Source of the DNA: Methanobacteriaceae archaeon
Lineage (GTDB): Archaea; Methanobacteriota; Methanobacteria; Methanobacteriales; Methanobacteriaceae
NCBI GenBank assembly: GCA_029219465.1
Contig: JAQXTL010000004.1
Span: 310,001 to 374,000 of the forward strand
Direction: 5' to 3'
DNA length: 64,000 nt
The position numbers and the translations under genes are program-made. Below, one piece after another: positions 11,129-42,820 of this stretch (its first letter is position 1; each line of letters starts with the position of its first letter). The notes beneath the pieces are model-generated. The model did not search any database, had not been told where the DNA came from, and saw nothing but the letters and a program-made list of their open reading frames with translations.

Positions 11129-11602
11129 TTTTTCCCTCCTAAATAAATAGAGTTTTAACTAATATACCACAAAAATGGTAAAATTTTTCACCAAATTGAG
11201 TTAAGCTATAAAGCAAATTTTTGTTAATAGCTAACTATACGGTATACAAATTTTATTTTAGTCAAGATATAATATAAACATTACCTATACAGTTTTTTAG
11301 AAAAGTATTTATGCAATAATAATTTAAGAAAAATAACCCTAAAAGTAATACTTTATATTATTATTTTAATAGATTTATTTTAAAATTAAATAAAAAAAAC
11401 ATAATAACATCTAAAAACAATACAATTTAACTTTATTTTAAATAAAATACTAAATATTAATGATTATTATCCAATTTAAAGAAAAATTTAAAATTATTAC
11501 TCAGACCCGTCAAAGTAATAAAAAATACTAAAAATAATACTTAAAAATTCACAAAAAATGACTGTTAATTTATAAATAAAATGAAAATAAAAATTATAAA
11601 AT
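11129..11602. promoter_or_regulatory. Divergent promoter region of mcr and mmp10
   Basis: This 474-base gap holds no gene. Minus strand: TATA-like TTTATATTAT at 11268-11277 predicts a start near 11246. At the 5' end of that transcript AGTTAAGCTAT (11199-11209) pairs with ATAGCTAACT (11227-11236), one bulged base and 17-base loop. A weaker dyad is at about 11177-11193. Plus strand: TATA-like TTTATAAATA at about 11569-11578 lies some 30 bases before ATG 11603, so the mmp10 mRNA is probably leaderless. The middle (11290-11560) is plain AT-rich DNA. Confidence 0.5.
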
Positions 11603-39184: not shown

Positions 39185-40336
39185 ATGGAATGTTATATAA
39201 CTTACTCAGTTAAAGGATTTTTAGCTTTTAATAATGAAAATGAATTAATATGCGAAAAATTGTTTCCTGAAGATGAAATAATTAATAGATTAGCTGAAAT
39301 TAACGATAAAAATATAGTTAAGGAAGAAATTGAAATAATTGAAGAGGTTTCAAAAGACTATGATGAAATTATAATTGAATCCAATAAACGACGCTCTGAT
39401 TATAACAATGATAAAGTAACTATCAAAACACCAAATCAGGGTGGAGATTATCTAAGAGACAATTATGATAAATTTGGACTTGACAGTGAAGAGATAACCT
39501 CCATTTACAGAAGTTTAGCTATCCATAAGATTAAAAAAGAATCTGCTTCTGAAGACAAACATTTAATTCAAGCTATTAATTCCATTGACGAAATTGACGA
39601 AAGCATCTCTAAATTAATTGAGAGAATTAGAGAGTGGTATGCCCTTTATTTCCCAGAAATGGATGTTATTCGCAATAATGAAACTTACATTAAATTAATC
39701 TCCCAAAACAAAACCAAAGAGAAAATTATTGAAGCAAAACCTGATGCATTTCCAGACGACATTATTGACCTTGAAGAAGACATAAATCCATTAGATTTGG
39801 AAATTATGAACAATTATGCAAAATCCATTTATGAACTTCAGCAATCAAGAAAAAATCTTGAAGAATATATTGAAAAGAAAATGGAAGATATTGCTCCTAA
39901 TCTAAAGCTTTTAGTTGGATCATCACTTGGTGCAAAATTAATTTCACATGCTGGAGGTCTTAAAAGACTTGCTGTATACTCATCAAGTACAGTTCAGATA
40001 ATGGGTGCAGAAAAAGCATTATTCAGACATTTAAAAAGCGGAGACAGGCCACCTAAATACGGATTAATTTATCAACACCCTCAAGTTAGAGGAGCAAAAT
40101 GGTGGAATCGTGGAAAAGTCGCAAGAATGCTTGCTGGAATGATATCTCACGCAGTTAGAAGAGATGTTTTTACTAAAACCTTTGATGAAAATGCTGCTGA
40201 CGAATTCTTATCAAAAGTTGAAGAAATAGAAAAAAATAATCCATTTCCAACAAAAACAACCAAAAGAAGAAAAGAAGAAAAGTCAAAATCCAAAAAGAGT
40301 AAGAAAAAAGGGAAGAAAAAGAAAAAAAGGAGATAG
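39185..40336 (+). CDS. Nop5 (Nop56/58) C/D-box RNP core protein
   Basis: Nop5 (383 aa) binds fibrillarin and box C/D guide RNAs for 2'-O-methylation. Domains are an N-terminal fibrillarin-binding part, a coiled coil (about 115-240) and the Nop domain (about 240-345, with GAEKALFRHLKSG and HPQVRGAKWWNRGK). The last 30 residues are a very lysine-rich tail, like the tails of eukaryotic Nop56 and Nop58. No ribosome site; AT-rich upstream, likely leaderless. Confidence 0.95.
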   Translation: MECYITYSVKGFLAFNNENELICEKLFPEDEIINRLAEINDKNIVKEEIEIIEEVSKDYDEIIIESNKRRSDYNNDKVTIKTPNQGGDYLRDNYDKFGLDSEEITSIYRSLAIHKIKKESASEDKHLIQAINSIDEIDESISKLIERIREWYALYFPEMDVIRNNETYIKLISQNKTKEKIIEAKPDAFPDDIIDLEEDINPLDLEIMNNYAKSIYELQQSRKNLEEYIEKKMEDIAPNLKLLVGSSLGAKLISHAGGLKRLAVYSSSTVQIMGAEKALFRHLKSGDRPPKYGLIYQHPQVRGAKWWNRGKVARMLAGMISHAVRRDVFTKTFDENAADEFLSKVEEIEKNNPFPTKTTKRRKEEKSKSKKSKKKGKKKKKRR

Positions 40337-40339
40337 AGC

Positions 40340-40981
40340 ATGAATGTTTATTTTAAAGATGGAAATGTTGCAACAAAGAATTTAACTCCTGGAATTAGTG
40401 TTTATGGAGAAGAACTTGTTCAGGAAGATGAAGAATACAGAATCTGGAATCCTAGACGTTCAAAATTATCTGCAGCCCTTTTAAATGGATTAGAAAATCT
40501 AAAGCTTGAGGACACCTCAAAAGTACTATATCTTGGTGCATCAACTGGAACTACCGTTTCACACATTTCAGATATTTTAATTAATGGAAGAGTCTATGCA
40601 GTTGAATTTTCACCAACAACAGCAAAGAAATTGGTTCAACTTTCACGTCAAAGGGTTAATATTGCTCCGATTTTAGGAGATGCAACCAAACCAAAAGGAT
40701 ATCTTAACATTGTTGAAAATACTGACTTAGTATACTGTGATGTTGCTCAGCCTACACAAACAGAATTATTTATGAAAAATATGAACATATTTGCCAAGGA
40801 TGATGCACAGGGACTTTTAATGATTAAGGCTAGAAGTATTGATGTAGTACAAAAGCCTAAAAAGATTTTCAAGGAACAAGAGAAAAAATTGAAAGAGAAA
40901 GGTTTTAAAATTATTGAAAAAGTGAAATTGGAACCTTACGAAAAAGACCATATTGCATTATTAGTGAAGAAAAATTTTTAA
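40340..40981 (+). CDS. flpA: Fibrillarin-like rRNA/tRNA 2'-O-methyltransferase
   Basis: Fibrillarin (213 aa) is the SAM-dependent catalytic subunit of the C/D RNP. Motifs are LGASTGTTVSHISD near residue 75, VYAVEFSP near 95, and the catalytic DVAQPTQ near 134. It follows nop5 by three bases with GGAGAT as ribosome site. Confidence 0.96.
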   Translation: MNVYFKDGNVATKNLTPGISVYGEELVQEDEEYRIWNPRRSKLSAALLNGLENLKLEDTSKVLYLGASTGTTVSHISDILINGRVYAVEFSPTTAKKLVQLSRQRVNIAPILGDATKPKGYLNIVENTDLVYCDVAQPTQTELFMKNMNIFAKDDAQGLLMIKARSIDVVQKPKKIFKEQEKKLKEKGFKIIEKVKLEPYEKDHIALLVKKNF

Positions 40982-41120
40982 AAAAAATCGGCCAATTTTC
41001 ATTAGTAAATAGCCAAAAAACAAGCTATAAGAAATAAAAAAAATTACTACTAAAAAGTGAAAAAAGTATTACTTAGATACCTTTTTATACTAGTAAAATA
41101 AAAATTATATATGCTAATGC
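40982..41120 (+). other. AT-rich gap after fibrillarin with promoter-like box
   Basis: No reading frame. An imperfect dyad (AAAAAGTAT at 41061-41069 with ATACCTTTTT near 41078) followed by T-rich DNA may end flpA. TATA-like TTATATAT at 41105-41112 precedes the hairpin element by the spacing expected for a promoter. Confidence 0.35.
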
Positions 41121-41215
41121 AAATAAAATAAATGTTCGATAAAGCGCCCTTTAGGTTAATTCACTCTATTAATCACTCCATTTAAGAAAAACCTAAAGGC
41201 GTGAACTTATTTTAT
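41121..41215 (+). ncRNA. Candidate structured RNA or dyad element
   Basis: The 3' arm (41190-41214) is 25 bases long and pairs without a gap with the 5' arm (41124-41157), which has three bulges (AT, GATAAA, C). The core, CCTTTAGGTT with AACCTAAAGG, is a perfect 10-base stem richer in GC than its surroundings. The loop is 32 bases. The TATA box at 41105 predicts a start near 41134, where GTTC pairs with GAAC at 41203-41206, followed by a T-rich run. No C/D box or tRNA fold is seen. Confidence 0.4.
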
Positions 41216-41621
41216 GAAAATACTCATTTTTAAGAAACTTTTTTTCAAAGACAATTTTACGTGGATTAAACAAAAAAAGTATTACTAATTTTAGGTTAAA
41301 TCTTCTAAAAAAATACCTATCAAATCAAAAATTTAATTTTAAGAAAACACACCAATAAAACTAATTTTTAACTAAAAATAATTTTCAAATAAATAAATAA
41401 CAATATCTAAAAATCGTATTTTTAAAATTAAACCATTACATGGAAATTTACATTTTCTATAAAATAACTAAAAATAGAACAGAGATTAGACTTAAATAAA
41501 TTAAAATTATGATTAATTAAATTAATAGTAACTATTAAATTATAAAAAATAATTAAACCTAAAATGAAAATAATAAAATAAATAGTAAAAAAAGTAAATA
41601 AATAATAAGCTAATGTAGATG
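41216..41621. other. Long AT-rich gap before coaBC end
   Basis: About 400 bases with no reading frame, ribosome site, clear hairpin or GC-rich island that I can support. It contains simple A/T-rich runs only. Confidence 0.5.
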
Positions 41622-42786
41622 CTATAACATTTTTTTAGAAATTACATCACAAATGACTTTTGCAATCTCTTTTTTTGAGGCCAAAGGAACACTCAAAACA
41701 TCATCATCAACAATTAGCACTTCATTGTTATCAGATCCAAATTGACATTCGTTTTTGGAAATATCATTTGCAATAACAATATCCGTACCAGCATTTTCAA
41801 TTTGTCTTCTAGCACAATCAATAATTTCATCTTTTGATATATTGAATTCTGCTTTAAAACCAACTAAGAAAATGTTAGGATTTATCTTTTTAACCTGGCG
41901 GATAATTTTAGTTGCAGGTTTTAGATTTAGAGAAAATGAATTCTCAGAATCAATTTTTTTATCATCCTTCTTTTTAAATTCAAAATCAGAAACTGCAGCA
42001 GTTGAAATGAAAATGTCAAAGTCAGGAATTAAATTTAAAATGACCTCATTCATTTCATTACCAGTTTCAACAGAAATAACATTAAAAACGGATGGAATTT
42101 TAACACTAACCTTAGCAACAACCAATGTTAAGTCAGCACCACGAATATATGCTTCCCTTGCAAGTGCCAAACCCATTTTACCAGAGGATTTATTTGTAAT
42201 CCCCCTTACGGAGTCAATAGGTTCGTATGTTCCACCAAGACTAATTAAAACTTTTTTTCCTTTAATAAGATCAATCCTTCTTGTTTAAAGTAATAGTTCT
42301 TAAAGATTCCAATACAATATCATCAATAGCAGGGAACTTAGCTTTGCCTTCATCCATACGAGGATTAATAAAAGTAGCAGAGTTTTCCTTTTTGATTTTA
42401 TCAATGTTTTCTTCAATAGCTTTAAACATTGAGTCATGCATTGAAGGAACGAATATTATTGGAGTATCGTGACCATAAGCAGTAATCAAGAGTGTAGAAA
42501 TAGCATCGTCAGCTATTTTATGTGCAAATTTAGAAATGGTATTAGCTGTTGCAGGTGCAACCAAGATTAAATCTTCCTGAGAATATTTAACATGTTCAAT
42601 TTTACCTGTTAATTTAGTAACTACTTCATTTCCTGTTGCAAATTCCATTGAATTAGGATGCAAAAGTTCACATGCAGCATCACTCATAAAACATTTTACT
42701 TCAACATCATTGCGTCTGAATTCACGGGCTAATTTAATAGCTTCACTAGCAGCAGCTACACTGCCAGTAACACATAAAACAATCAT
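41622..42786 (-). pseudogene. coaBC: CoaBC with frameshift between the two domains
   Basis: The first frame (42786 to 42271) gives the CoaC flavoprotein (decarboxylase) domain, ending LNKKD and a TGA. The second frame, from about 42275 down, gives the CoaB domain with VLISLGGTYEPIDSVRGITN and SSGKMG. Together they are one bifunctional enzyme of coenzyme A synthesis with one extra base, most simply one of the two G at 42276-42277. The overall length is 3n+1, as expected for a single insertion. The CoaB frame has no usable start at its beginning. Sequencing error, recoding or a true mutation are all possible. Confidence 0.85.
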
Positions 42787-42820
42787 AAAAATCACTTAAA
42801 AATAATTAAAAAAAATAATA

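Follow-up and report, generated by a model that had tools for sequence, protein, structure and literature searches.

We analysed a window of 64,000 nt of Methanobacteriaceae DNA, in which a 640-base gap (40982–41621) separates the fibrillarin gene (40340–40981, + strand, PF01269) from convergent coaBC genes. Fibrillarin is preceded by a Nop-domain gene (39185–40336, + strand, PF01798), and the far side of the gap is bordered by the C-terminal half of coaBC (41622–42176, − strand, PF04127), followed by the other coaBC domain (42271–42795, PF02441); the mcr operon and mmp10 also lie within the window. By these genes and by a search with the loop pattern, which among named assemblies hit only Methanobrevibacter, the window belongs to a Methanobrevibacter genome of rumen/gut type. 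The original prediction placed a new hairpin RNA next to this C/D RNP operon, at the most GC-rich spot of the gap. Both statements agreed with the domain assignments and the base composition: the gap as a whole has a GC content of 18%, whereas its richest 50-nt windows (32–36%) fall on the hairpin. On the + strand, the segment 41098–41220 folds at −23.8 kcal/mol (z −4.11), a value that none of 200 shuffled sequences equalled, and the 3′ arm (approximately 41190–41214) is paired without interruption against a bulged 5′ arm, as had been described for a 25-base arm. The − strand gave a z score of only −1.7, near the shuffles, and an RNA on that strand was rejected on this basis. No match to any of 4227 Rfam families was found in the window at the gathering thresholds, nor in 41030–41330 at E ≤ 1, and a tRNA search found none.

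In a DNA search, 31 of the 37 genomes of the genus each yielded a single strong homologue, with 78–90% identity, within gaps that are AT-rich and otherwise variable. A first covariance model (R1) was built from 30 homologues of the genus, and a second (R2) after matches from other genera had been added; with a cut-off of E ≤ 0.01 for a genome match, R2 found the element in 100 of the 151 genomes of the order, and R1 in 98, both at full length. The matches come from ten of 19 genera, all of one family (Methanobacteriaceae), and the one in genus g24 is marginal (E 0.004). Among the same 151 genomes, neither a Methanosphaera-like genus (g26) nor the sister families gave a covariance-model match. 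Strong matches occur once per genome, apart from a few fragments at contig ends in draft assemblies, and nearly all sufficiently complete loci have Nop5-fibrillarin upstream and coaBC downstream, with a distance from fibrillarin to the RNA of approximately 60 to 1300 nt. In several draft assemblies the sequence is broken, or one arm is missing, right at the hairpin (locus L140 of G114; contig ends of G015, G110, and G120), and some absences are thus assembly artefacts.

Alignment of 45 diverse sequences (A3) revealed two helices that enclose a large loop. In the lower helix, GUUC (41134–41137) pairs with GAAC (41203–41206), with 94.6% of the alignment cells paired; in the upper helix, CCUUUAGG (41148–41155) pairs with CCUAAAGG (41192–41199), with 97.5% of the cells paired. 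The upper helix varies among genera, with CCUUUAGG/CCUAAAGG replaced by CCUCUAGG/CCUAGAGG, CCUCUAAG/CUUAGAGG, and others, and seven of its eight pairs show compensatory changes on both sides. For the whole structure, both-side changes were found in nine of 15 pairs and in 45 cells compared to 11.6 in shuffled alignments, none of which (0 of 500) reached these counts. Across the 45 sequences, 96.1% of the pair cells form, and shifting one strand by 1 nt reduced this to 50–56%. Conservation extends beyond the helices to a 20-nt 5′ part and a 35-nt loop. The 5′ part begins with TGCTAATGCA (41112–41121), in which a 3-bp mini-hairpin is possible and TGCTAATGC is nearly invariant in alignments A2 and A3. 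The loop carries two motifs, UUCACUC (41160–41166), whose UCAC is present in all 45 sequences, and UCACUCC (41173–41179), whose ACUCC is present in 36; in nearly all sequences that have both, ACUCC follows UCAC by 9–12 nt. In single sequences from five genera, the fold z scores ranged from −3.1 to −6.3. The hairpin is thus almost certainly a structured RNA element, and the covariation among relatives that had been proposed as a check was found.

The same data bear on whether the element is a mobile inverted repeat of the MITE type or a chance palindrome, a reading that its inverted arms in an AT-rich gap would allow and that further copies elsewhere in the genome were expected to favour. It is instead almost always single copy and mostly at a fixed locus, its arms carry compensatory changes, and its loop is conserved throughout the genus, so that we give this explanation virtually no weight; a MITE, which would need several dispersed copies per genome, is refuted. 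A small-protein gene was also rejected, since no reading frame is conserved in the RNA: the longest frames are mostly 5–17 codons, a few reach 25–36, and they vary between loci. The fibrillarin neighbour prompted a search for a C/D box guide RNA, which was rejected as well (RUGAUGA in none and CUGA in six of the 45 sequences), as was an H/ACA guide RNA (ACA in the last 20 nt of none of the 45). The looser ANA does occur in the last 20 nt of 34 of the 45 sequences, but the tail is A-rich, which makes this box uninformative.

To describe the promoter, 68 loci from ten genera were anchored on the conserved TGCTAATGC. Nearly all have a TTTATA-type box between −26 and −30, and 60 have the near-palindrome AGTAnTACT between −46 and −48. 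In the window, these correspond to the TATA box TTTTTATA (41082–41089, + strand, approximately −27) and to a 9-bp operator-like site, AGTATTACT (41065–41073, + strand, approximately −47), which together place the RNA start near 41112. From this start and from the U-rich tail CUUAUUUUAU that follows GAAC and is the likely 3′ end, the RNA is approximately 105 nt long (41112–41216, + strand, predicted ends); both covariance models cover it at full length, and its fold z is −4.36. The original prediction had proposed a different TATA box (approximately 41105–41112), a start at about 41134, and an RNA of about 75 nt; in relatives, the segment of that box is an AT-rich spacer that varies, and the start and length gave way to those of the conserved promoter and tail. 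The RNA very probably has its own promoter and starts near 41112.

A second AGTAnTACT site lies downstream in 57 of the 68 loci, 66 of which extend 300 nt or more downstream; counted from the RNA start, it comes after 166 nt in the genus and after 175–221 nt in most others. In the window, this copy of AGTATTACT (41278–41286, + strand) is approximately 100 nt past the RNA end and precedes no gene, and DNA looping between the upstream and downstream sites is possible. These flanking sites had escaped the earlier reading and point to function. The RNA is kept without an exact upstream AGTAnTACT in three genomes, G109, G033, and G098 (loci L143, L148, and L151); G109 has four copies of the motif compared to two for the control, as if the regulon had been rewired there. 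The hairpin could also be viewed as merely a terminator or a 3′-end processing element of the fibrillarin operon, since in most genomes it follows fibrillarin, and since it ends in a U-rich tail. Arguing against this are a promoter and an operator of its own, both conserved, the conserved 20-nt 5′ part and 35-nt loop, a distance from fibrillarin that ranges from approximately 60 to 1300 nt, and a pattern search that found no terminator, which make this view very improbable. Collectively, these comparisons show a structured RNA element of approximately 105 nt with its own conserved archaeal promoter, predicted to be an independent gene. As Rfam holds no match for it, the original prediction of a new RNA was borne out by conservation and covariation, and the family is previously uncatalogued.

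The operator-like site is not confined to the RNA. The pattern AAAAGTATTACT clearly outnumbers its reversed form in most of the 13 genomes compared (for example, 22 compared to 2 and 23 compared to 1), although in the window's own genome AAGTATTACT is in only slight excess (24 versus 15 for the control). In 3-kb stretches from several genera, annotated with NCBIfam, the genes adjoining the sites encode CbiM, a NikA-like binding protein, a heavy-metal P-type ATPase, McrB, FrhA, Hmd, and HmdC; the site is 467 nt upstream of frhA and between hmd and hmdC. Further sites precede CbiB and, in the Methanosphaera-like genus, cfbA, which encodes the F430 nickelochelatase. Some sites are inside coding genes, probably by chance. 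AGTAnTACT pairs spaced by 32 or 33 bp (approximately three helical turns) were found in 22 cases, compared to a single pair in all for the reversed control, and the RNA's upstream site is single rather than part of such a pair. The paired sites (L080, L081, L160, L173, and other promoter loci) define a two-part operator of a nickel-related regulon that is family-wide. The TATA boxes of nikM and the P-type ATPase have sites on both sides, and that of the RNA has its site immediately upstream. AAAAGTATTACT is also found upstream of large surface proteins, including those of sister families (L330, L331, L336, and L338; L208 and L235), which may be nickel-related. On these motif and gene-neighbour grounds, the small RNA very likely belongs to the AGTAnTACT regulon.

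One further copy of the site lies within the window, between mcrB and mmp10 (11344–11352, − strand). A long 5′ untranslated region (11129–11290, − strand), preserved from genus to genus, leads the mcrBDCGA operon. Its ends, GTATACC...GGTATAT, are complementary, and it contains the motifs GCTATTGCAAAA and CTTA(A)CTCA. This region may be a structured regulatory leader, and its single-strand motifs are similar to those in the small RNA.

Hmd, Frh, and Mcr are classic nickel-responsive enzymes of the order (PMC3087415, PMC12350162), and a site common to nickel importers and nickel-enzyme genes argues for a nickel regulon. We therefore think it likely, from gene content, that the AGTAnTACT regulon responds to nickel. 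NikR (PF08753) is encoded once in each of 12 genomes, including the window's, and is the putative regulator; that the regulon would answer to nickel through NikR is somewhat favoured. The Methanosphaera-like genus has both NikR and the motif, and the RNA is absent there. The E. coli NikR operator, GTATGA-N16-TCATAC, differs in spacing from the 32–33 bp pairs described here (PMC7055735). This difference and the putative role of NikR leave some room for an RNA of the same kind that answers to another signal, such as cobalt, another metal, or hydrogen, through a different factor, and the sites before CbiB, the annotated cobalt transporter CbiM, the P-type ATPase, and surface proteins fit with it. 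However, hmd/hmdC, frhA, and mcrB are textbook nickel-responsive genes of the order (PMC3087415, PMC12350162), and cfbA encodes the nickel chelatase of F430; we consider another signal doubtful.

We favour, with some reservation, an RNA gene of the nickel regulon that would be under NikR-type repression when nickel is plentiful and whose open loop would pair with ribosome-binding sites. Given the positions of the sites at or next to the TATA boxes, a nickel-bound repressor would block the promoters of nikM, the P-type ATPase, and the RNA. Under this proposal, a nickel-responsive repressor, most likely NikR, would keep the RNA promoter closed when nickel is plentiful, and the RNA would be made, along with the nickel import system, when nickel is scarce. 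Its stable stem would then present the large open loop, the C-rich motifs of which would base-pair with target mRNAs at their ribosome-binding sites. Such pairing would adjust translation of the targets as iron-sparing RNAs do in bacteria, which is the weakest step of the proposal. Points that count against the proposal are the lone upstream site at the RNA, the three genomes that keep the RNA without an exact one, the Methanosphaera-like genus that has NikR and the motif but not the RNA, the operator spacing unlike that of E. coli, and the outcome of the target searches. Because of the likeness of the C-rich loop motifs UCAC and ACUCC to the anti-Shine-Dalgarno sequence AUCACCUCC, pairing is the simplest proposal. 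In bacteria, sRNAs of the RsaE/FsrA type use C-rich loops to cover Shine-Dalgarno sequences; they likewise have a stable stem with unpaired CUCC-like motifs, whereas here the role of the motifs is putative and the target searches, made on a partial gene sample and on the matches inspected, brought out no specific targets.

In the genome, exact copies of the loop complement GGAGTGATTA lie within genes, on the antisense strand. With one mismatch, GGAGTGATTAAT gave 119 matches compared to 68 for the reversed control, and AATAGAGTGAAT gave no excess over its control. Near-exact 12-mers in seven genomes included no recurrent 5′-end target among the matches inspected, which were mostly due to chance and mostly antisense in genes. 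In duplex-energy calculations against 353 start regions, a partial sample of the genes, loop affinity was slightly above that of shuffled loops. Nickel-enzyme start regions gave stronger binding to the loop (p 0.02); their Shine-Dalgarno sequences are stronger as well, and in this partial sample the preference vanished when compared to shuffled loops (p 0.34). No specific targets for Shine-Dalgarno blocking accordingly emerged from the exact search, from the 12-mer matches inspected, or from the duplex energies of the partial gene sample. A near copy of the loop (AATCACTCTATTAA), possibly a chance match, is present at 1868–1900 of locus L085, approximately 90 nt from a AAGTATTACT site in a divergent promoter region.

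The main rival to pairing with mRNAs is a structured RNA under the same regulator that binds a protein, to sequester it or to give it a scaffold. Pairing alone does not require the degree of sequence conservation observed in the loop and in the 5′ TGCTAATGCA, the searches yielded no mRNA targets, and a dimer could bind at the two near-repeats, whose spacing is fixed. Against this, we know of no partner protein for the RNA, the motifs are CU-rich and anti-Shine-Dalgarno-like, and start-region pairing slightly exceeds that of shuffled loops, so that we regard protein binding as rather improbable. As for the preferred reading, the small RNA probably helps the cell manage nickel; action on mRNAs through the loop is plausible, although we lean slightly against it, and a lowering of nickel enzymes by the RNA is unlikely.

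Nickel-responsive sRNAs are already known in bacteria. Those of H. pylori that are regulated by NikR (Nrr1, Nrr2, and IsoB/NikS; PMC5385501, PMC8035401) likewise have promoters in a nickel regulon that contains nickel import. They are bacterial, and NikR binding and the nickel response have been measured for them, whereas here we infer both. To our knowledge, they share no common sequence or structure with the archaeal RNA. RyhB-type sRNAs (Fur/iron, bacteria) follow the same proposed logic of being made when the metal is scarce and lowering its non-essential users, but they concern another metal and another domain of life, and the target searches for the archaeal RNA brought up none. Among methanogens, sRNA154 of Methanosarcina mazei answers to nitrogen via a regulator. 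It and sRNA162 (PMC3510493 for sRNA162) are trans-acting sRNAs too, from another archaeal order and with another signal and experimentally shown targets; we claim no sequence relation to them. A literature search of partial coverage found no report of an archaeal nickel-responsive sRNA, which leaves priority unproven. That this RNA is the first archaeal nickel-sparing sRNA, controlled by NikR, made under nickel limitation, and lowering the translation of hydrogenases and Mcr, is a tentative idea that we hold to be improbable.

In M. marburgensis, the Mvh protein vanishes under nickel limitation, and an earlier study saw no drop in transcription (PMC12350162). If the nickel-sparing idea is true, the RNA would be the counterpart, in another family, of this unexplained protein loss in Methanothermobacter. 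Methane production needs nickel enzymes, and the nickel supply shifts the use of hydrogenases by methanogens; in Methanothermobacter, part of this shift shows in the proteins, with no corresponding change in mRNA (PMC12350162). A conserved sRNA in the nickel regulon of rumen and gut methanogens would be a concrete, testable component for this protein-versus-mRNA question. A further gain is an archaeal RNA family not catalogued before, together with a defined operator for a family-wide regulon that is likely to respond to nickel: AGTAnTACT, often in pairs 32–33 bp apart.
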